Shown: piece by piece, positions 4,607 through 61,110 of the stretch
Layout of the letters: each line of letters begins with the position of its first letter
Numbering within the stretch: the first letter of the stretch is position 1
IMG/VR virus record: IMGVR_UViG_3300036760_000522
Location: 237,551-301,550 of that record
From: a virus
Direction: 5' to 3' (one strand)
DNA length: 64,000 nt
The notes under the pieces: generated by a model
What the model was told of the DNA's origin: nothing
The model's input: only the letters and a program-made list of their open reading frames with translations
Databases searched by the model: none
Position numbers and translations under genes: made by a program

Positions 4607-6063
4607 GTTTCCTCTAGAGGCGCTAACAGATCATCCTCGTCAACTGCGTCCGCAACCTCTTCAACTTCCACCTCCACATCTGACCCATCGTCCCCATCTG
4701 CATCCATGCCAAGGCTCGACAAGAGGGCGTCATCCTCGCTCACAACAGTGTCTTCCGGTTCAGGCACTAACATGTTGTCACTGTCGTCACGAATCGCTGT
4801 AAGAACCAGAGTTTTCAGTTTCTCGAAAGATGCAGAATTCTGAATCAGGTATTCTCGCAACTGCTCGCGTCCCCTGAAAGTATGGTCGGCGTACACGTAA
4901 GAAGATCCCGCCTTCTTGACAAGGCGATTGACCACCGCGGCTTCAATCAAACTGTAGTGGTCGTCGTAACCATGGTTGAATCGAATGAAGACTCCTGCGA
5001 CGCGCCCCTCCATAGCGTCTAGCTTCGACTTAACCACACGCACCCGTGTGTGGTTTCCGTACGGATAGTACACGTCCTTGCCAGTCACCTTGTCTCGGCG
5101 TTTGATACGCTCTGATTTCGTGCGGTTAAAACTCAAGCGCAAATAGGCGTAGAACTTCAACGCTTTCCCGCCAGCTGTGTTGGTATCCATCTGCGGGGCC
5201 CCGTAGCTACCGCCCCCAATCAACGATCTGGTTTGGTTTACCAGGATGAGTGCCATGCCCGTTGGAGACAACTTAGTGCTGCCCAACAACGCCGCAAGTT
5301 TTGGTAACGTATCTGAAAGTCCTCTCGCGCGAGCACCGATGGTAGCGTGTTCGTCGAGTCCCTTCTCGAGTTCGGACCTCGGAACCATGGCTGCAACAGA
5401 GTCAATCACGGCCAAATCACAACCCTGACGCATGGCCATTGCCAACAACTTCCAGCTCTCTTCCATCGAAGTCGGTTCGTAGTGCAGGAGTCGCTCCTCG
5501 AGATTGACGCCTATTTTTCGAGCATACCTGGGATTGAGAGCATGCTCGTGATCCAGATACAGGCACCAACCCCCCTGTCGTTGACACGCAGCAATAGCTT
5601 CGAGGGCAGCGGTTGTCTTACCGCTCGCCTCAGGCCCAAAGATCTCAGTGATCTTGCGTCGCGGATACCCGAGACAAATGGGCTTTCCGTTTTCCGCTAG
5701 CGTGCCGCCAATCAAGTGATCCAGAAGAAATGAACCAGAAGAAACAGAAGCGTAATTGTCACTGTGTTTGACTACTGCCTTAACCCCTGTTCGACGTTGT
5801 ATTTCAGTGCGTGCAGCAGCAACCTGCTTCGCGGATTCCGCAGCACGCTTACGTTGATCCGTCAATACCACCTGATCGGACAACGGTGAACGTGTGTTTT
5901 TGGGCTTAGCAGGCACAGGTTTCTTGTCGACTACCTCCTGCACTGCGGCTTTCACAGGTTTCTTCGCAGCATTTACTGATTCCAATTTCACTTCCTTATG
6001 GGGAACGGTCTCAACAGGGACCGACGAACTCCTCACAGAGCTGAACAACTTCCTAGCAGCCAT
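4603..6063 (-). CDS. recA: RecA recombinase with long N-terminal extension
   Basis: The protein has 486 residues. The first 95 or so are a lysine/proline-rich extension absent from bacterial RecA. The core follows, with Walker A GPEASGKT (143-150), catalytic glutamate in DHEHA (E173), Walker B LAVIDS (217-222), and the loop-2 region around SYGAPQMDTNTAGGKALKF. The C-terminus is strongly acidic (EDDLLAPLEE), as in many RecA proteins. It catalyses ATP-dependent strand exchange and here would drive recombination-dependent phage replication with RuvC-like, SbcCD-like and RecD2-like partners. Its start lies 31 nt inside the end of the upstream ruvC-like gene. Confidence 0.95.
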   Translation of the reverse strand: MAARKLFSSVRSSSVPVETVPHKEVKLESVNAAKKPVKAAVQEVVDKKPVPAKPKNTRSPLSDQVVLTDQRKRAAESAKQVAAARTEIQRRTGVKAVVKHSDNYASVSSGSFLLDHLIGGTLAENGKPICLGYPRRKITEIFGPEASGKTTAALEAIAACQRQGGWCLYLDHEHALNPRYARKIGVNLEERLLHYEPTSMEESWKLLAMAMRQGCDLAVIDSVAAMVPRSELEKGLDEHATIGARARGLSDTLPKLAALLGSTKLSPTGMALILVNQTRSLIGGGSYGAPQMDTNTAGGKALKFYAYLRLSFNRTKSERIKRRDKVTGKDVYYPYGNHTRVRVVKSKLDAMEGRVAGVFIRFNHGYDDHYSLIEAAVVNRLVKKAGSSYVYADHTFRGREQLREYLIQNSASFEKLKTLVLTAIRDDSDNMLVPEPEDTVVSEDDALLSSLGMDADGDDGSDVEVEVEEVADAVDEDDLLAPLEET

Positions 6064-17855: not shown

Positions 17856-18833
17856 TCACGCAGTCGCCGAAAGTACAGCCAATTCGACCAGCGTTCTCTT
17901 GGAACGGGCCGACCCTTTGATTTGGGATTCGAGTTTGCATAGGATTTTCATTTGACCAACCAACGCACCTTGAGTGTGTCGGCTGGTTAACGGAATCACG
18001 TTCATTTTGCAGGCGTACTCTTTTTGGCCCAAACGTGCCGCAATCACAGAAATAGAGTCGCTACGATCAAGCAAGTGTTTCGCCAGAAGCAAGCGCTCAA
18101 CTTGCTTCATCCAAGAAAATACAACAGGGACCCAAGCGGAATCCCCCATGTGGAGGTAGAGTCTGGAGATCAGATTCATCGCCTTGCCCGCGTCCCTCAG
18201 CATCACGGCGTCTGCGACCTGATAAGGTTCAACAGGTATCGCAGGGGACGCCACCAACATGACTTGGCGCAGACTGACAACTTCCTTGGGCTGTACCAGG
18301 CATTGAAGTTTCTTCAATTCATTCACAACAGCACGAAGGTTGTCACCATGAAACGCAAACAGTTTGTGCGCTACACCATCTGCCAATTTCAAACCAAGGT
18401 CTGTCGCCTCGTCTGTGATGCGCTGAACAGTCTTGTCACGTTCCCATGGTTTGAACTTCGAGATCGCCACCTTCTCAGCAAGAACTGCTACCTCGGACCA
18501 ACCGCCAGACAATTTGTCGGATCTGTAGAGAGCCACCAATGACATCGAGGCGGAATCAAATGCCCCGGACAAGTATGAAATGAACCCCTTGCCAAGCTTC
18601 AGCTCTTGCGCATTGTCGACAACGACGATGCGGGATCCGCTTTCAAAGAGAGGTGGTGTCTCACACAAAGTATGCAGAGACTCACTCGTCGTCGTGGATC
18701 CGTCCACGTAAGTAACGACCCTGTTTTTGCTCTTCCACAGAAACCGCTTGGTCTCGAATACCTTGTCTATCAGGTAATCCTCATCGCCATAAACGAGGAG
18801 GAACGGGCGCGTCTTTCTTTTGACAGCCATCAC
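17856..18833 (-). CDS. holA: DNA polymerase III clamp-loader delta subunit (HolA-like)
   Basis: The 325-residue protein starts with the HolA pattern FLLVYGDEDYLIDKVF, then a segment placing an acidic-aromatic start and a VVVDNAQELK strand where HolA has its beta-clamp-opening domain. The middle and C-terminal parts (AHKLFAFHGDNLRAVVNELKKL; MLRDAGKAMNLISRLYLHMG) match the AAA-lid and collar helices. HolA wrenches open the sliding clamp. It overlaps holB by 4 nt and shares the operon with the clamp gene, so the phage encodes several subunits of its own loader. Confidence 0.85.
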   Translation of the reverse strand: MMAVKRKTRPFLLVYGDEDYLIDKVFETKRFLWKSKNRVVTYVDGSTTTSESLHTLCETPPLFESGSRIVVVDNAQELKLGKGFISYLSGAFDSASMSLVALYRSDKLSGGWSEVAVLAEKVAISKFKPWERDKTVQRITDEATDLGLKLADGVAHKLFAFHGDNLRAVVNELKKLQCLVQPKEVVSLRQVMLVASPAIPVEPYQVADAVMLRDAGKAMNLISRLYLHMGDSAWVPVVFSWMKQVERLLLAKHLLDRSDSISVIAARLGQKEYACKMNVIPLTSRHTQGALVGQMKILCKLESQIKGSARSKRTLVELAVLSATA

Positions 18834-19762
18834 GAAAATACAGTTGCCAATGCGGCCTTGAGATGAAACGCCAAGTTAATACGAGCCGCCGAGTGATTCG
18901 ACCTCACCTGACGAAGCTCGAACCAGATGGTTTCAGATTTCGATCCAAGTGTGTTGGACAACTCGGACAACAAGGAAGCCAGATCAACATTGATCACTTT
19001 CGCAGGTGCGTGTGGCACGATCAAAAGATCTTGCACCAAAAGCTCAAGAAATCTCAGACCCAAAATCAAGTCATCACCTAACTCATCAACAATCGAAAAC
19101 AATGCGGACAAGTCGCGACGAATCCCGGCACGCAAGATCTCGACGACACGGTCACGAAGGTTCAAGCGATTGGAGCTAGCAAGCTGCACAGCTCGGCCCA
19201 CTGAGCCTTCCGCTAAGCGTGCGTACAAAAGAGCTTTGTGATCCTCATCAACGAATGATCTCAAGACACCGATTAGAAGGGCGTCGCTCAAACGATTGTA
19301 CCGAACAAGCCCACAACGAGAACGCACGGTCGGAAGGACCTGTTTCACCGAATTTGCCAGAAGGAAAAAGCGCGTTGTTCTAGACGCGCTTTCCAACGTC
19401 TTGAGAAACGCGTTGGCTGCTGCGATCGTCAGCCTGTCAGCACCGTCGACCACGACATAACGCAGTGGGGCTAGCAACGGATAGTTGCAAACAACTGATG
19501 TAGTGTCACGCACAGCTTCAACGCCGATCTCTTGATCAGCTTCTGCACTGACTACGACGAAATCTGGATGCGCGTTGCGTGCAAGCTGTCGTCGCTGCGC
19601 GGCATCATCCCCGACAGAATCTAGGAAGGCTTCAGTAACCGACAGCCTCTTGCCAACGCCGTCATCGCCCACCAACAGAAGTGGCGAAACCCAACGACCG
19701 GCTACAACACAACGCAGAAACCGAACTGCGCTATCCTGTTCGAGTACCGAGTTCAGGGACAT
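18830..19762 (-). CDS. holB: DNA polymerase III clamp-loader delta-prime subunit (HolB-like)
   Basis: The 310-residue AAA+ protein has a P-loop GDDGVGKR (33-40), a DEAD-box equivalent YVVVDGADRLTIAAANAFLKTLE, and the SRC motif in TVRSRCGLVRYNRL, the arginine finger of clamp loaders. The order and spacing match bacterial HolB. The tau/gamma motor subunit is not in this window and may lie to the left. Its start is inside the 3' end of a small zinc-ribbon gene. Confidence 0.85.
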   Translation of the reverse strand: MSLNSVLEQDSAVRFLRCVVAGRWVSPLLLVGDDGVGKRLSVTEAFLDSVGDDAAQRRQLARNAHPDFVVVSAEADQEIGVEAVRDTTSVVCNYPLLAPLRYVVVDGADRLTIAAANAFLKTLESASRTTRFFLLANSVKQVLPTVRSRCGLVRYNRLSDALLIGVLRSFVDEDHKALLYARLAEGSVGRAVQLASSNRLNLRDRVVEILRAGIRRDLSALFSIVDELGDDLILGLRFLELLVQDLLIVPHAPAKVINVDLASLLSELSNTLGSKSETIWFELRQVRSNHSAARINLAFHLKAALATVFS

Positions 19763-22421: not shown

Positions 22422-23150
22422 TCAAGAAATAAGCGGCGTCACGCTCTCCGCTATGGACACACTATCTGAAGCTTGACGATCAAGTGGCAAAGAACCGATC
22501 ACCGAAGCACCACTTGGAAGAACCACATTGCTCGAAACTTGAACATTCAAGACTTGTCCGTTGTAATCCGAGTAGGGACCAAAACTGCGTCCACCTGAAA
22601 TCAAATTGGAAGCATTGAATGGCGTCCACAATGATTGAGGATCAGTAGTCCACACAGACATCGTGGAGGGGCCGACCAAAAAGCTTGCGAAGCGTGTTCC
22701 AGAAATAGCAGCAGCCGAGTTCCAAAACAATGTCGCAGACACAACCGCCCCCACTTCGAAGATCAAAGGCGCAACGACGTTAGCGACTTCGACACCCGCT
22801 GAATTTCGAATCCGAGCAAACGGTCGATTGTCCGTGGTGAGCCCGATACCCAAATAGTTGACCGGCGCAGAAGGCACGTCCGTCAAGAACGCAACAAAAC
22901 GTTGGACCCCTGGAGAACCCACTACGAAGTTCACCGAAAGGGTGCCACGTGATCCTGCGAAACGACCAAGCAGCGAAAATACGCCAGCACCCTCACGATT
23001 TTCAATCACACCAGGTAAAGCCCGAAACGCTTGATTTGATCCAACCCTAGAGCCAGCCCACGTTGGTGTCGACCAAGGGGTGCCAGGAGAAACCGGCGTT
23101 CCAAGGTCGAATTGTGCTGAGAGACCTGAAGCGTTTTGCAACTGGGACAT
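22422..23150 (-). CDS. LamG/concanavalin-like virion protein candidate
   Basis: The 242-residue protein has an almost all-beta composition rich in S, G, V and T, with a laminin-G/concanavalin-like run (GVFSLLGRFAGSRGTLSVNF). It resembles the N-terminal half of the LamG-PhoD protein at 61118. Such domains occur in phage tail fibres and surface-decorating proteins that bind sugars. There is no signal peptide. The neighbours are small and do not fix the role. Confidence 0.5.
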   Translation of the reverse strand: MSQLQNASGLSAQFDLGTPVSPGTPWSTPTWAGSRVGSNQAFRALPGVIENREGAGVFSLLGRFAGSRGTLSVNFVVGSPGVQRFVAFLTDVPSAPVNYLGIGLTTDNRPFARIRNSAGVEVANVVAPLIFEVGAVVSATLFWNSAAAISGTRFASFLVGPSTMSVWTTDPQSLWTPFNASNLISGGRSFGPYSDYNGQVLNVQVSSNVVLPSGASVIGSLPLDRQASDSVSIAESVTPLIS

Positions 23151-23174
23151 CAACAAGCTATGTTCAAAAACAGA

Positions 23175-24464
23175 TCAACCGATGAGGCTAAGAAAATCAA
23201 CTTCTTGGGCTTTTGTCGCTTCAAGACGTTCACGAGTCAATCGCACTCGCCCACACGCTGTCATGTAGGAGTCCTTGTCGCGTTCAATTCCGAAGAATCG
23301 TACGTCTTCTTCCAAGGCCGCAACCAATGTCGTCCCCGATCCACAGTACGGGTCTAACGTCAAACCATGCTTCGGCGTCGACAACTTGACCAACCAACGG
23401 ATCAATTTGACAGGTTTTCGCGTCGGATGAAGGTTCTCAACCTGACCGTCAAGCGTTGCTTCACGATCAGACGCCTTGGGGACGTAACGCAATGGGGACT
23501 CGAACTGGTGATAGAACCTCGACACAGGTGCATCTCCGTAGGACAAGGTGCCTGTCTTCTCTTCCGTCGGTCGTTGCTCCTCCAAAGCTCGAACGGGACA
23601 ACCTTCAACACACTTCCAAACAATCAATGTCTCGGGTTGATCTGAAGCCATCTGATTACCGTAGGCTGACGAGAACGTGCCGCCCGACGTTTTTTGAAAA
23701 CGTGCAGCTCCTTGAGCATGAGGAGCGACTTCCGCCACTCCGGTCTGCTCACAACCAGGAGCATGTTCAAACAAACAGTTGGGTGGCCAACGCCCCTCTT
23801 CCTTGACATCATTGGCTCCTGACAAATCAGACGAATTCTTCCACGAGTTTCGACGTACTCCGCCACGTCGTTTGATCTCCTCAACCTGTTGGCGGTGCTC
23901 TTCAAAGTCCTTGCGATTCGCATGACGAACACGCGCAGCATCGATGTTGATCCCGCCCGTGCCGTACTCCGAAACGTTCTCGGCAAGTGTGCCGATGAGA
24001 GGCTTGCGACAAACCAGGATCGGTTCCCACACAGGCTTCAATCCTGTACCAAGACCAGGGTGGCCTGGCAGTGTTTTGCTTTTGGGCATTCCTTGACTCT
24101 GGATCCACACCAGCCCGCTAGAATGGTCGGCGATCGTGTCTCGAAATTGAAACCCTGCAAAGCGAGCTCCCATCGACAACAAGTCCCAAGTACGTGTTCC
24201 ACTAAAAAATAAAACGTGAGCGCCTGGCTTCACGACTCGAAAGATCTCGTGCCACGTAGGGATTGATGGGATATCCCATTTGCGACCTGCAAAGTCACCA
24301 GTCTTGAGATCCGCTCCTTTTAAGTAAGCAAGGATCTGTTCCGGACTCGGCTCCTTACCTAAGCCGTAAGGCGGATCGAAAACCGCCGAGTCGAAGGTGT
24401 TACTGGGGAGCTCCTTGAGAGTCGGCAGACATTCACCGAGTACAATTTGATTTTCGTAATCCAT
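23175..24464 (-). CDS. Beta-class DNA methyltransferase (N6-adenine or N4-cytosine)
   Basis: The 429-residue protein starts at ATG 24464 (MDYENQIVLGECLPTLKEL). Motif IV FDPPYGLG comes early and the SAM-binding motif I LDPYCGSGTT late, the order of beta-class MTases. A target-recognition region of about 250 residues lies between. Typical substrates are adenine N6 or cytosine N4. Specificity cannot be read from sequence. No restriction enzyme is adjacent, so it is probably an orphan methylase protecting phage DNA or marking replication. It is divergent from the small + strand gene at 24487, with only 22 bp between starts. Confidence 0.9.
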   Translation of the reverse strand: MDYENQIVLGECLPTLKELPSNTFDSAVFDPPYGLGKEPSPEQILAYLKGADLKTGDFAGRKWDIPSIPTWHEIFRVVKPGAHVLFFSGTRTWDLLSMGARFAGFQFRDTIADHSSGLVWIQSQGMPKSKTLPGHPGLGTGLKPVWEPILVCRKPLIGTLAENVSEYGTGGINIDAARVRHANRKDFEEHRQQVEEIKRRGGVRRNSWKNSSDLSGANDVKEEGRWPPNCLFEHAPGCEQTGVAEVAPHAQGAARFQKTSGGTFSSAYGNQMASDQPETLIVWKCVEGCPVRALEEQRPTEEKTGTLSYGDAPVSRFYHQFESPLRYVPKASDREATLDGQVENLHPTRKPVKLIRWLVKLSTPKHGLTLDPYCGSGTTLVAALEEDVRFFGIERDKDSYMTACGRVRLTRERLEATKAQEVDFLSLIG

Positions 24465-24486
24465 TGCTGTCTCATCAAAACTAGAA

Positions 24487-24738
24487 ATGCCACCCTCACA
24501 GTTCCCGCTCACACGCGAAGAGCAGTACTCATGGGACACCGCGTTTGCAATCGCGTTCGTAAAAGAGGTCTGCGCTGTCTCAAACGAAAACAGTCGAACG
24601 TTAGATGATGTGCTTGAAAGTCTCGACCAAGAAACACGACCTGAACTCACAGCCAGGGCGATCAAAATAGCGGATGCCTCAGTAAGACAATTACGAAACT
24701 GGCGGCTCCACAGTCCAAAGACAGGTGTTCTCGTCTAA
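24487..24738 (+). CDS. Small hypothetical helical protein
   Basis: This 83-residue protein (MPPSQFPLTREEQYSWDTAF) is mainly helical and ends with a basic segment (VRQLRNWRLH). It is one of two rightward genes inside the leftward block, followed after 27 nt by the metalloprotease-like gene. No family recognised. Confidence 0.5.
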   Translation: MPPSQFPLTREEQYSWDTAFAIAFVKEVCAVSNENSRTLDDVLESLDQETRPELTARAIKIADASVRQLRNWRLHSPKTGVLV

Positions 24739-25320: not shown

Positions 25321-26034
25321 CTAGATGTGACGTTGAATCACTTTCTCGATCCGTGGTTGATGTTTTTTCAACCACTGGTGAGGATACGACCGGGCCATAC
25401 CCCACACCTCAGCGAGTTCCTGATCAGTCAGACCATCGAGCTTCGCAAGAAACCACTCTGGCGCACGTTTGTCGATCTTGGACAGGTCATCCAAAATCCC
25501 CTTGACGACATGTCGAGGAAGCAAATTGTCGAGAGCTTGAAAGGTTTCAACATTGTCGACGTCTAAGTCACCACCAATAGCTTCTCGCCGGCTTTCAATG
25601 CTGCGAAAAGCGTCCACTAGGAGATTGTGTGCGATCTTGAAAATGAAAGATTCTGCTTCACGTAGCTCGATGCCAGCTCTCGGCTGAACCCGACCACCCG
25701 ACAGTTTCAACAACAGCTGTGACACGACTTCTTGGACAAGTTCTGGATCCTTTGCCTTCATCAACAACATTTTGTAGAGTCGTTGACCGAAGCTACGTCC
25801 ATAGCCAGAGGGCAGCCGAGTGGGATCGACCTTGGTGCCAAGAGTTACGTTGGGCGGTGGATCCATCACGACGCCGCTATTCAAAAAGAGAGCGTACGTC
25901 GTTCGACCAATCGTGTCAGCCAGATCCGCAGCAAGGACCAGGAAGACCTGAGCGACTCGGTACCCCCACGGCAGTGCTCGGTAAAGCCTAACGCTTACGT
26001 GCGAAGCCCGAGCAACGAGTAGTCGAATCGTCAC
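25321..26034 (-). CDS. Sigma-70-family (ECF-like) factor
   Basis: The 237-residue protein has a region-2-like core (AKDPELVQEVVSQLLLKL, FIFKIAHNLLVDAFRSIESRR, as in ECF sigma 2.1-2.4) and a C-terminal helix-turn-helix (LTDQELAEVWGMARSYPHQWLKKH) as in region 4. GTG 26034 lies 2 nt after the stop of the second sigma-like gene. An internal ATG at 25866 (MDPPPNV) would remove an odd hydrophobic leader and may be the true start. It probably redirects host RNA polymerase to phage promoters such as the recurrent elements of the right half. Confidence 0.75.
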   Translation of the reverse strand: MTIRLLVARASHVSVRLYRALPWGYRVAQVFLVLAADLADTIGRTTYALFLNSGVVMDPPPNVTLGTKVDPTRLPSGYGRSFGQRLYKMLLMKAKDPELVQEVVSQLLLKLSGGRVQPRAGIELREAESFIFKIAHNLLVDAFRSIESRREAIGGDLDVDNVETFQALDNLLPRHVVKGILDDLSKIDKRAPEWFLAKLDGLTDQELAEVWGMARSYPHQWLKKHQPRIEKVIQRHI

Positions 26035-26036
26035 AA

Positions 26037-27224
26037 CTACCGGAAGGATACAACAAGATCCTCAAGTCGTTCGCATCCAACGCGGTTCCGGACCTCTTCG
26101 ATAGCAGAGAGGTAGACATCCGACGGAATGTCCTCTCTGTCCGCAAATTGTTGGTCCCACGACGAAGAGGAGTCTTCAAGGCGTGTTTCGTGTACCCCCT
26201 GATCTGTCAACACAACCAACGCATCCCCTGACAACGGTCGCTCTTTGTGACGGCGATCCCGTGTACGAAAAACGTTCTTCAGGTGATTTATCACAGCTCG
26301 TGACAGGTAGCTCTTGAAACCTTGAATGATCGTGTTGTCCTGCTTCGCCACCCAAAGAGGCGCTTTGGGATTGAAGTCTCGGACAAAATATGAAGACTTG
26401 GCAAGCGTCTCAATGTCGGCCACCAAGTAACGGGCTTTCAAAGAAAAGAGACGTCCCTCTACCGGACGCGGGATCCAATACGTTGAATCCCGTTTCGACT
26501 TCCAGAGAGCCTGACGCCACTGGACCCGAGTGATTGACAGCGCAGAAAGGATCTCGGCGACGCCAACCGTCCTGCTTGGCCTAACCTTGATAGCGTCGAC
26601 GTAGCGATCCAGGAATTTAGCACTCAAGAGGCGGCACCAGACGTCCTGCACAAATTCATTCAGTGCCTCTCCACACGCCCGAGTCATCTTGGCCACCAAC
26701 GACTTGACGAACCCTCCATACGACGAAACCACCTGAGTATTGTTCTTAGGAAGCCCGGAGGGCCACTTCCAGACCAGAAACAGTCTGATCCTCACGTGGC
26801 GGCAAAAAGCCTCGAGAACGGCTCCTGGTAAGATCCGTGCGTTCCTAGGAAGCCTTAAGAGGTGTATCCGACTTTCGATTCGAACGATGTCTGGTCCCCA
26901 ATAGACGGTTTGTCTCGAACAGAGCTTCACCCCCTCAACGAGATTGGGTTGGACCTCAACCCAATCAGGGTCCCGCAGAGTCATTTGAGTCAATCGAAAC
27001 CACTGGTGTGGCGACAGCCCCAGGTAGTTGATCGTTTCGGTGTGTGACATGGCACGTGGAAGGTGACGAGAAGAGTCGAAACGCTCCAAGGTCTGAAGCC
27101 GTTCAAGCTCGCTGATCAAGTAATCAAGCGAGCAACCTATCCTGCGTGCCTCTTCTTCTAACCAACCACCATGTAGAGCCTTCAGTTCCGAGTAGTTTTG
27201 TGGGATCCCAGCCAAACAGTTCAT
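26037..27224 (-). CDS. Divergent sigma-factor-like protein
   Basis: The protein has 395 residues from ATG 27224. A TTG at 27263 is in frame. Between about 200 and 330 it shows a split region-2 pattern: EALNEFVQDVWCRLLS, then after an insertion FKSYLSRAVINHLKNVFRTRDRRHKE, the helix that melts DNA in sigma 2.3-2.4. An N-terminal HTH-like segment (YLGLSPHQWFRLTQ) is also present. It is the first gene of the leftward module and sits directly upstream of the ECF-like gene, so the two probably form a transcription cascade. Family assignment is moderate. Confidence 0.5.
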   Translation of the reverse strand: MNCLAGIPQNYSELKALHGGWLEEEARRIGCSLDYLISELERLQTLERFDSSRHLPRAMSHTETINYLGLSPHQWFRLTQMTLRDPDWVEVQPNLVEGVKLCSRQTVYWGPDIVRIESRIHLLRLPRNARILPGAVLEAFCRHVRIRLFLVWKWPSGLPKNNTQVVSSYGGFVKSLVAKMTRACGEALNEFVQDVWCRLLSAKFLDRYVDAIKVRPSRTVGVAEILSALSITRVQWRQALWKSKRDSTYWIPRPVEGRLFSLKARYLVADIETLAKSSYFVRDFNPKAPLWVAKQDNTIIQGFKSYLSRAVINHLKNVFRTRDRRHKERPLSGDALVVLTDQGVHETRLEDSSSSWDQQFADREDIPSDVYLSAIEEVRNRVGCERLEDLVVSFR

Positions 27225-27280
27225 TCGAAAATTCCCTGAGAGCAAGAGCTCGGAGTTGTGCAACCCGACAGAGTTTCCGA

Positions 27281-27308: not shown

Positions 27309-27427
27309 TCCAAAATCGAAGCACTACCTTATTTCATTAAACAGTGTTGACGAAAATCGGATCCAGAAGAACCATGACAATTGTCCACAGAGATCCCACA
27401 GAGGACTCTTCATCAACAGGTGAGAAA

Positions 27428-27946
27428 ATGCCTACAAGCCCAAGTGAATCAAAGTTCGAGTTAGCTCAGCGAGAACTAGTTCAAGCAGCTCAGAACAAAC
27501 TCTTCACCACACAGGTGGACACACCTGTGTTCTCGATCCCCTCGACGCCTCACGATCAGAAGGTCTTCGGGCTGCTCGCCAAAGCTTGGATCCTTTGGGC
27601 AACAGGCTCTGACCCTCTTCCCACCATCGACAAAATAGGAAAACCCCACGAGGCGGGTAGAGCACTTCACCTCATGGCTCTCGATCATTGGAAACGAGCC
27701 ATTCAAGCCTTGGCTCGTTCATCTCTTCAGTTCCCGATCAACCAGGACGCTCTATCGTCCAATCAGGAAGCTTTCCTGTGCTTCCAGCGGGCTCTTCTGC
27801 TTAGTTCAAGCTATCAGCTACCTTCCACCAACAGCATCCATTGGTCGTTTGTTGCCTCCTTTCCTACACTTGCGATCAGCTACCTTACACACACTCTCTC
27901 TTCTTCACCACCCAAGTCTGTCTCTCCATCCATGAGAGGTCATTGA
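27428..27946 (+). CDS. Hypothetical protein next to the origin-like region
   Basis: This frame encodes 172 residues from ATG 27428, which has an AGGTGAG ribosome site. An earlier ATG at 27374 is possible. The first 130 residues look protein-like (FELAQRELVQAAQNKLF, VFGLLAKAWILWAT). The last 40 are S/P-rich and less convincing. The DNA carries several inverted repeats, including 9-bp arms at 27509-27530, and a TTGTCCACA near-match to a DnaA box lies just upstream at 27381. Coding status is uncertain. Confidence 0.4.
   Translation: MPTSPSESKFELAQRELVQAAQNKLFTTQVDTPVFSIPSTPHDQKVFGLLAKAWILWATGSDPLPTIDKIGKPHEAGRALHLMALDHWKRAIQALARSSLQFPINQDALSSNQEAFLCFQRALLLSSSYQLPSTNSIHWSFVASFPTLAISYLTHTLSSSPPKSVSPSMRGH
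27509..27530. repeat. Perfect inverted repeat, 9-bp arms
   Basis: ACACAGGTG and CACCTGTGT are separated by GACA. This is one of a series of dyads between 27.5 and 28.96 kb. Confidence 0.8.
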
Positions 27947-28649
27947 CTCTTTGTCCCCAACGGGCTCCGTCTTCATCACCGGCATCACTACTATGAGGAT
28001 TGCTAGTACGAGGATTGCGATTGCTACTACTTGCTGAGTTACGAGTTTCTGGATTTGAGCTTTCTGAATTTGAGCTTTCTGGATTATTGATTGTTGAAGC
28101 GTTAGTATGATTTGCAGCAGTATGATTTGAAGCAGTAGTTATTGAGTTAGTATGATTTGAGTTGCTACTATTTTCGGGGTACCGAACTTCGTGAGAGAAT
28201 ATCCGAAGATCGAAATGATCATGATCTGAGTGAGCATGGACCATGATCTAGGATCATGGAAGAATCCCTACAGGGATTCTGTTCATTTGATCTTGATGAT
28301 CTGTTGCTGAGAGATAGCAATAGATCATGCTCCACTACTTGAGTACTAGCTGTCAGTTGATCTCGTCCTTGTGAACAGCTTAGGTTGGGAGTCTGTGGGA
28401 TCGACACATTACCCAATCCACTCATGATCCATCGGATGGATGGATCTTCGGTCAGTTGGATTTTTTTGACGTCCTTAGTGTGATGAAGTGACCCGACGTT
28501 CATTGTGCTCTCAAACAGCTGACGGTTGATAGGAGATCCTGTTAACTCCTAGAGGACCACTACACCGGCTCGGACCTGTTGGACAAGGAGATCTTTTTGG
28601 TCGGATGGTCGGAAGAGGTTTGGACTTCTGTTGGTGTAGGTGAGTGAAG
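27947..28649. other. Non-coding origin-like / regulatory region
   Basis: No convincing gene lies in these 700 bases. Left part: AT-rich repeats, with three 15-bp units (28040-28084; last two TTGAGCTTTCTGAAT and TTGAGCTTTCTGGAT) and three 11-bp AGTATGATTTG units (28104, 28119, 28149). Right part: 12 GATC sites between 28208 and 28446, about one expected by chance, with perfect dyads CCATGATC/GATCATGG (28241-28259), AGAATCCC/GGGATTCT (28261-28280) and GATCCATC/GATGGATC (28426-28446). It is where leftward transcription gives way to mixed strands. Iterons, an AT-rich tract and GATC clustering together resemble a replication origin. A minus-strand N/S/T-rich frame across the repeats looks like a repeat artefact. 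Confidence 0.5.
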
Positions 28650-28970
28650 ATGCTCAGTCGAATGAAGCTGTCGGATGTTAAGTGGGATCCCACCGTGCTC
28701 ATCGAGTTACCCGCTCCGCTTCGCGTAGCGGAGAGCCTTGCGTTGAAGTTCCAGATCACCCGTCAGGTTGATCGACGTTGGTGGCGACTCGACGTTGTAG
28801 GAATCTTCCGTGTCACACAGGTAGGCTTCGACGCTCAGAAAGGCCTCTCACGGCAGCTTCTGAGCGTCGAAGCCTCAGGACCTCCGCCAGTGTGGCAGAG
28901 CGTTCGAAAGCCTCCCAGAATCGAAACCACGTGGAGTCCTGCTAGGTCTCCACGTCAGCCCATCATCTAG
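28650..28970 (+). CDS. Hypothetical protein containing an 18-bp inverted repeat
   Basis: This frame encodes 106 residues from ATG 28650 (AGGTGAG ribosome site 4-10 nt before). Content such as DVKWDPTVLIELPAPLRVAESLALKFQ and RRWWRLDVVGIFRVTQ looks protein-like, with a basic, proline-rich tail. The DNA holds a palindrome GTGGGATCCCAC (28682), a stem CTCCGCT/AGCGGAG (28714-28733), an 18-bp perfect inverted repeat (28823-28875) and an 8-bp one (28929-28955). Either coding and structure overlap, or the frame is not a gene. Confidence 0.45.
   Translation: MLSRMKLSDVKWDPTVLIELPAPLRVAESLALKFQITRQVDRRWWRLDVVGIFRVTQVGFDAQKGLSRQLLSVEASGPPPVWQSVRKPPRIETTWSPARSPRQPII
28823..28875. repeat. Perfect 18-bp inverted repeat with 17-nt loop
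   Basis: Arms AGGCTTCGACGCTCAGAA and its exact reverse complement flank a 17-nt loop. The transcript would fold into a very stable hairpin. No T-run follows, so it is not a classical terminator. Confidence 0.85.
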
Positions 28971-29125
28971 TAGAGCGAGACGCTTCGTTACTAAAGCTAC
29001 CCTGGTCCCTGTTGGACGATCGGCCTCGCGGAACACTCCGAGTCAAGGGCGAAGCAAAGGTCCGCGTAGCTGGAGCCCTGGAGCCCTGTTGGTCTATCCC
29101 ACACTTGTTCACAGGACGTTTAGAA

Positions 29126-29551
29126 ATGAAAGCAGTGAGCCTTTACCAACCGCATGCGTCGTTAGTCAGGATCGGCGTCAAGAAATTCGAAACGCGTAGT
29201 TGGGAGACCCGGTACCGAGGCCCACTAGCGATCCATGCGACCAAGGCCTTCCCACGTCAGTACGTGGCGCTCAGCGTGACGGCTCCGTTTTTCAAAGCTC
29301 TGCGAGACGAGTTCCCTCTACCAGCCGGCGCAGTCCTTTGCGTCGTGGATCTAGTCGACTGCATTTCGACAAGTGAGGCTCTTCAACAAGACCTGATTTC
29401 AGATGAGGAACGACTGTTCGGAGATTACAGCCCGAATCGGTTCGCGTGGAAGCTACAGCTTCTCGATGTTTTTGAGCGTCCCATCCACGCTCGAGGCGGA
29501 CAACGCATCTGGGAGTGGATCCCTCCTCAGAAGTTCACGACGTACGTGTAA
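29126..29551 (+). CDS. ASCH/PUA-like domain protein
   Basis: The 141-residue protein starts MKAVSLYQPHASLVRIGVKK at ATG 29126. It continues with ETRSWETRYRGPLAIHATKA, the diagnostic start of ASCH domains (a PUA-related RNA-binding fold). The C-terminal half is VLCVVDLVDCIS ... FAWKLQLLDVFERPI, also typical. ASCH proteins are thought to bind or process RNA or modified nucleosides, and phages often carry them. The start chosen matches the family start. The preceding 155 nt hold no convincing gene. Confidence 0.8.
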   Translation: MKAVSLYQPHASLVRIGVKKFETRSWETRYRGPLAIHATKAFPRQYVALSVTAPFFKALRDEFPLPAGAVLCVVDLVDCISTSEALQQDLISDEERLFGDYSPNRFAWKLQLLDVFERPIHARGGQRIWEWIPPQKFTTYV

Positions 29552-57329: not shown

Positions 57330-57636
57330 CAGAATTCGAACCCTGACCGTCGTACTCGATGCCGACTATCGAGATGACGATCTCGAATCACTCCTCACAG
57401 CAATCAAGATGGTTCGAGGTGTCGATGATGTTCAATTTGGTGAAGTCGTCAATTACAAGGACTGGATAGCCCGTCGTGCAGTGAAGACTGAACTCCAGCA
57501 CGAACTGCTCAAAGCAATCAACGGCGTGTTCGAAGAAAAGGCTTGGATAGCCCGTCGTGCAGTGAAGACTGAACTCCAGCACGAACTGCTCAAAGCAATC
57601 AACGGCGTGTTCGAAGAAAAGGCTCGAAGCTTGTGA
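57322..57636 (+). CDS. Hypothetical protein with exact internal duplication
   Basis: The 104-residue protein from GTG 57322 begins MTDRIRTLTVVLDADYRDDD, followed by a segment (VVNYKD) and two identical 27-residue repeats (WIARRAVKTELQHELLKAIN...). Without the duplication it would be 77 residues. The N-terminal part resembles a small ferredoxin-like fold. No function known. Confidence 0.6.
   Translation: MTDRIRTLTVVLDADYRDDDLESLLTAIKMVRGVDDVQFGEVVNYKDWIARRAVKTELQHELLKAINGVFEEKAWIARRAVKTELQHELLKAINGVFEEKARSL
57463..57624. repeat. Perfect 81-bp tandem duplication
   Basis: 57463-57543 and 57544-57624 are identical base for base, in frame, within a gene. A recent event. Confidence 0.95.
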
Positions 57637-60686: not shown

Positions 60687-60941
60687 ATGTCTGGTGACCT
60701 GCTACACGACGCGAACAACCGAATTGTTACGGCCACCTTGAAGCTCGAGTTGTATTTGCTCGAGAACGATGGCAAAGGCATTGGCCGGGAAAACGTGCTC
60801 GAGGTTGTGTCGATTTTGAGGGGGCCGCAACAGCACGTGTGGGTTGCAGAAGTCGCGAACGGGGCCCAAGTCTGCATTCACTGCGATGAGCGTTGGCTCG
60901 AGGGCTCTATGCCAACCACGCCGTGCAAGGTGTCAGCGTGA
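60687..60941 (+). CDS. Small hypothetical protein
   Basis: 84 residues (MSGDLLHDANNRIVTATLKL), beta-rich with two cysteines near VCIHCDERW. It is preceded by a good sigma-70-like promoter and has almost no leader. Confidence 0.5.
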   Translation: MSGDLLHDANNRIVTATLKLELYLLENDGKGIGRENVLEVVSILRGPQQHVWVAEVANGAQVCIHCDERWLEGSMPTTPCKVSA

Positions 60942-61110
60942 CAGGTCAGACAGTCACAGGTCAGACAGTCACAGGTGTCCCAATGGTGGGGTTTTCGGGT
61001 ACCGAGGAGGCTTCCTCTGCCGGGAAGGGGAGTGCCTGGTTCCAGGGCGCGAGGAACGCAGGCTGCCAATCACGTTTGACGAGCTTCGTGCCAAGTGGCA
61101 GTTGCTCTAA
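60939..61110 (+). pseudogene. Possible frame-disrupted small gene
   Basis: A frame ending at 61110 reads GVFGYRGGFLCREGECLVPG, then RLPITFDELRAKWQLL and looks protein-like, but it has no start codon after the upstream gene. The 15-bp tandem repeat at 60945-60974 (GTCAGACAGTCACAG twice) lies just where a start is expected, so a repeat expansion may have broken the gene. Confidence 0.3.
60945..60974. repeat. 15-bp tandem repeat
   Basis: GTCAGACAGTCACAG occurs twice in exact tandem, preceded by a partial third unit (GTGACAG). Confidence 0.9.

Follow-up and report, generated by a model that had tools for sequence, protein, structure and literature searches.

The window analysed here is a stretch of 64,000 nucleotides (C1:237551-301550) from the 301,550-bp genome of a huge phage (record G000), from which a 212-kb sample was taken for background statistics; positions are those of the window unless they carry the prefix C1. 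Gene orientation changes at a block of inverted repeats at 27509-28955, and leftward of the element described below are encoded two sigma-like proteins, a DNA methylase, GroEL, HolB, HolA, RNR, a ligase, RecD2, RecA and an SbcCD-like protein. The replication and nucleotide genes of this set (HolA, HolB, RecA, RecD2, RNR and ligase) are mostly transcribed away from the element, and holA and holB were used as the synteny anchor with relatives. A DnaB-like helicase is encoded at C1:145 kb, and no DnaA gene was found in the phage. The region is laid out as follows:

17856-19762, minus strand: homologues of holA and holB (DNA polymerase III delta and delta prime; PF21694, PF06144, PF13177)
23175-24665: N6/N4 methylase
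25321-26034, minus strand: second sigma-like protein (SigZ/ECF-like; NCBIfam TIGR02959, E 3e-8, below the cut-off)
26037-27263, minus strand: sigma-70-like protein, the first leftward gene (its matches to Sigma70_r2 and sigma70-ECF are weak and fall below cut-offs)
27428-27946, plus strand: gene of 172 aa, family unassigned, at the left border of the element; holds the dyads at 27509 and 27693
27650-28450: support interval of a GC-skew switch in a genome-wide fit, best position 28050
27947-28200: AT-rich, low-complexity stretch with 15-bp periodicity, a candidate DNA-unwinding element or unstructured linker
28200-28643: noncoding, strongly foldable stretch with dyads at 28217, 28241, 28261, 28296 and 28426
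28644-28970, plus strand: ORF of 108 aa, a doubtful gene; holds the dyads at 28682, 28714, 28823 and 28929

Eight perfect dyads had been claimed for the block in an earlier, sequence-only reading, and all eight were found in the sequence at their places; the arms of the dyad at 28261-28280, however, measure 9 bp and not 8 bp, and an additional 9-bp dyad at 27693-27719 had been overlooked. The eight dyads are:

27509-27530: 9-bp arms, loop of 4
28241-28259: 8-bp arms, loop of 3
28261-28280: 9-bp arms, loop of 2
28426-28446: 8-bp arms, loop of 5
28682-28693: palindrome of 12 bp
28714-28733: 7-bp arms, loop of 6
28823-28875: perfect inverted repeat with 18-bp arms and a 17-nt loop
28929-28955: 8-bp arms, loop of 11

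When loops of at most 20 were allowed, the block contained 7 dyads with arms of at least 8 bp (0.36 expected) and 12 with arms of at least 7 bp (1.4 expected), and first-order simulations of the window reached a maximum of 3 and 7 such dyads, respectively, per 1450 bp. An inverted-repeat scan confirmed that no other 1450 bp of the window are as dense as the block, as had been claimed; when the scan was extended beyond the window in the same genome, however, C1:8.3-9.8 kb proved denser, with 16 such dyads, and this stretch is a CRISPR array. The 18-bp arms at 28823-28875 (1.5e-5 expected in 64 kb with loops of at most 20) are the only dyad that is individually beyond chance, and this hairpin does not have the form of an intrinsic terminator, as no T-run lies 3' of the stem. 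Long perfect inverted repeats are also found elsewhere in the genome, at C1:5954-5990 (18 bp), C1:18594-18645 (24 bp) and C1:18767-18802 (18-bp arms that make up a 36-bp palindrome), and some of these adjoin genes.

A search of viral contigs with six proteins returned a single contig close to the phage, L003 (159 kb, about 93% identical), which covers the region; no further close relatives were found among the genome contigs, nor by DNA in phage records. The open reading frame at 27428-27946 is a real gene, because 24 of its 36 substitutions relative to L003 fall in third codon positions, and the dyad at 27509 is a chance dyad inside this coding gene. Conservation of the arms, which the sequence-only reading had offered as a check on its claim, holds in part: in L003 the dyad at 27509 is broken and those at 27693 and 28929 are changed, and the dyads within 28083-28934 are identical. 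The latter fall within 852 bp that match L003 without a single difference and end abruptly on the right; this run is not evidence of constraint, because a coding stretch (22611-23356) is also identical to L003 over 746 bp and recent recombination explains the identity equally well. L003 neither supports nor refutes constraint on the central dyads. At 5322-5734, L003 carries an additional ORF, presumably with a DUF488-like motif, between the 108-aa ORF and an ASCH gene; the window counterpart at 28971-29126 is without this ORF.

The other seven of the eight dyads belong to one noncoding-rich element of about 1 kb, approximately 27947-28965. Its left part contains GTTAGTATGATTTG-type copies at 28101, 28116 and 28146, arranged as tandem repeats with a period of 15, and 27950-28200 folded worse than 193 of 200 shuffles (z +1.67). 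The stretch 27947-28643 is noncoding by codon likelihood, and an N/S-rich ORF on the minus strand (27885-28244) was rejected as a gene, being without codon-position bias relative to L003. Further right, folding far exceeded that of shuffles, with z scores of -5.0 on the plus strand (DNA and RNA) and -2.3 on the minus strand for 28180-28640, and of -4.4 and -4.7, respectively, for 28640-28965. The densest GATC cluster of the 212 kb sampled (12 in 300 bp; marginal, P about 0.05) also falls within 28200-28643. The 108-aa ORF has a codon likelihood of about zero; its stop and frame are kept in L003 despite differences in the last 30 nt. Neither the 172-aa nor the 108-aa protein matched Pfam, PHROG or NCBIfam. 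Searches of Rfam at gathering and relaxed thresholds gave only chance-level matches at the element, and models of GOLLD, ROOL and OLE did not recognise it; regularly spaced identical repeats, as in a CRISPR array, were likewise not found there. The dyads had been suggested to be cruciforms, protein sites or RNA structures controlling a switch: structure beyond that of shuffles is indeed present, but nothing points to control of a switch.

GC skew of the genome is negative from about 140 to 265 kb and, in the remainder, approximately zero or slightly positive. When two switches were fitted to the 212 kb, one fell at C1:265,600, which is window position 28,050, and 0.1% of positions fit as well as this one. 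At 4-fold degenerate sites, skew changes across the switch from -0.125 to +0.036 in minus-strand genes, and plus-strand genes have values of -0.17 to -0.19 in the left arc and -0.06 to -0.07 in the right arc. Because the change is present in both gene-strand classes, gene orientation alone is insufficient to account for the switch. It should be noted that skew to the right of the element is about zero, not strongly positive, and that the fit places the second switch only loosely (124.8-216.5 kb). A first impression, of a skew terminus situated directly across the genome from the block, was abandoned once the fit had been made. Furthermore, at lengths of 100, 200 and 400 bp alike, the element contains the least stable DNA of the 212 kb sampled, which marks 27947-28200 as the candidate DNA-unwinding element. 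The genome therefore displays both a skew switch beyond gene orientation and a DNA-unwinding element in the sense of a locally least stable duplex, as looked for in a bidirectional origin. A DnaA-type oriC was not recognised, with a single TTGTCCACA at 27381 and no cluster of DnaA boxes.

The TerL of the phage is closest to that of LR745208.1, an uncultured 485-kb phage (41% identical), the replication module of which has the same gene order (holB-holA-RNR-RecD2-RecA-SbcCD). In LR745208.1, skew reaches its minimum at 434,960, and within the sampled genome the 400 bp of lowest stability are found at 435,404, about 3 kb upstream of holA. The dyad block of highest density, with more than 12 short hairpins, occupies 434.6-436.8 kb, upstream of holB-holA; this element also folds strongly beyond shuffles. 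No DNA similarity was found between the window and the element region of LR745208.1. Thirteen contigs sharing the LR745208.1 TerL were screened, and holA was present in 8 of these. Stability scans of the relatives covered 27-35 kb around holA, and the least stable 400 bp were found 1.3-3.3 kb upstream of holA in LR745208.1, G002, G003, G004, G008, G010 and G012; in G011, where gene B has shifted 14 kb away, they lie immediately upstream of that gene, and G009 is an exception to the pattern. The layout in the LR745208.1-TerL group is element, gene B, holB, holA, with the element 1-3 kb from holB, whereas in the window the element is 8.4 kb from holB with other genes between. Gene B was found in neither G000 nor G001, and the 172-aa and 108-aa window proteins, considered as its homologues, showed no homology to it by hhalign.

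A skew switch at the element is clear in three of six phages (G000, LR745208.1 and G009, where the switch is at 33.6 kb and the element at 34.5 kb) and weak in G011; G002 has weak skew of opposite sign, and G008 gives no skew support at the element. By dyad density in 800-bp windows, the element ranks in the top 0.06% in LR745208.1, 0.15% in G009, 0.7% in G000, 4% in G008, 5% in G002 and 32% in G011. Counterparts in the relatives consist of structured stretches around a low-complexity linker, with a base composition that changes, and identity between them was 73% over 597 bp in G002/G003 and 71% over 173 bp in G004/G008. In these two comparisons, 7-17 pairs were kept through two-sided changes versus about 5 in shuffles, where pairs were predicted from one sequence alone and some comparisons were within the shuffle range; the kept pairs showed no strand preference. 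The element of the window can be matched to that of the relatives by place and properties, not by sequence. A motif common to G004, G008 and G010, GGGAGNCCGAAGGNCGACCG, was taken as a generic hairpin because beyond these three it is carried only by unrelated contigs. In G009, an ORF of 474 aa (L076 17055-18480), which is presumably TnpB/Cas12-like, directly adjoins the presumed origin element.

A replication origin is the best single explanation for this locus because the skew switch, the least stable DNA, the hairpin-rich flank and the recurrence before holB-holA come together in it, and the element at about 27947-28965 is probably the origin of the phage, or its core, with a melting element and a hairpin-forming flank. 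The dyad enrichment is not separated from a general intergenic hairpin excess in phages, the intergenic DNA of which tends toward more hairpins than coding DNA. The huge phage would replicate bidirectionally from the element. A putative phage initiator would bind within 28200-28650, to the palindromes or to the GATC-rich repeats (the element offers palindromes and degenerate 15-bp repeats as candidate binding sites); alternatively, a transcript of 28200-28650 might serve as preprimer. Melting would then take place in the AT-rich 15-bp repeats at 27950-28200, the phage replisome, including the DnaB-like helicase and the clamp-loader subunits HolA and HolB, may be loaded on both strands, and the 18-bp hairpin at 28823 would flank the origin core. 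E. coli oriC, ori-lambda and P1 oriR likewise lie near replication genes and combine a least stable AT-rich stretch with adjacent repeats and a GATC cluster; in contrast to oriC and iteron origins, however, the element has neither DnaA boxes nor 19-22 bp iterons and carries many different short palindromes. Origins of the ColE1 type with an RNA II preprimer also place a structured beside an unstructured stretch at the origin, and would work alike if RNA primes replication here; their sequence is unrelated.

It is also possible, though unlikely, that the element is, or for the most part encodes, a large noncoding RNA, structured except for an internal linker and transcribed near replication genes, and that the skew switch results from transcription or chance. 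Folding far beyond shuffles in both the window and LR745208.1, a linker less structured than shuffles, the same arrangement in the counterparts and the pairs kept in G002/G003 and G004/G008 are all consistent with an RNA; however, folding and kept pairs occur on both strands, as expected of DNA palindromes, no Rfam family matches, and a skew switch in both gene-strand classes is left unexplained. GOLLD and ROOL, large ornate phage RNAs for which internal disordered linkers are mentioned (PMC12286853), are alike in being large structured phage elements; the element described here lacks a match to them in Rfam and lies outside the tRNA island of the phage, which holds 14 tRNA genes at C1:119-125 kb (L010 9145-15333). 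Less likely still is an ordinary long intergenic region between divergent gene blocks, with the dyads acting as operators and terminators. The change in gene orientation, the two adjoining sigma-like genes and the terminator-like form of 28261-28280 would suit such a region, but promoter- and terminator-like sites are no commoner than in shuffles, and it predicts neither the least stable DNA, nor a skew switch in both strand classes taken separately, nor the same coincidence in LR745208.1 and G009.

Two further explanations were weighed against a replication origin. That the repeats came with a mobile or mosaic segment in a recent exchange is suggested by the abruptly ending identity of 28083-28934 in phages otherwise differing by 7%, but the identical run in ordinary coding sequence nearby, the absence of transposase and integrase from the segment and the positional counterparts in other phages make this very unlikely. 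A packaging site (pac/cos) is the most improbable of the readings considered. The pac site of P1 is methylation-controlled, and the GATC cluster together with the N6/N4 methylase recalls it; however, TerL lies 40 kb away, the skew switch and melting element would be unexplained, and a P1-like pac was rejected on account of the marginal GATC cluster.

Huge-phage origins are known from skew curves, and to our knowledge none has been described base by base; among the papers searched, none dealt with this element or with hairpin-rich origins of huge phages. Approximately 30% of huge phages show GC skew of bidirectional replication (PMC7162821), and the skew-inferred origins of Al-Shayeb et al. 2020 (PMC7162821) likewise concern metagenomic huge phages with a GC-skew switch, to which base-level anatomy and a comparison across relatives are added here. 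The locus provides a concrete 1-kb candidate origin for a huge phage and a layout that can be searched for in others, namely a melting stretch with a hairpin-rich flank upstream of holB-holA, and it raises the question of by what means a phage lacking DnaA initiates the bidirectional replication of 300 kb of DNA. More tentatively, and against the balance of probability, a lineage of huge phages may share a large structured, origin-associated element that heads the replisome genes, 700-1000 nt in length and built of hairpin domains on either side of an unstructured linker, with a sequence that turns over quickly and a layout and helices that persist; such an element may be a new class of large phage RNA priming or controlling replication.

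Outside the element, the CRISPR array (C1:8.5-9.9 kb) is part of a phage-borne type I-C-like system at C1:2668-9865 that encodes Cas5c, Cas8c and Cas7c, along with an ORF of 793 aa that did not match Cas3, after which about 18 repeats follow; neither cas1 nor cas2 was found among the ORFs scanned at this locus, which is similar to the I-C variant reported from huge phages (PMC7162821). The last repeats of the array alter both hairpin arms and keep the stem. Tandem repeats were seen in the window at 57463-57624, a perfect duplication of an 81-bp unit, and at 60940-60976, a perfect 15-bp repeat of ACAGGTCAGACAGTC.
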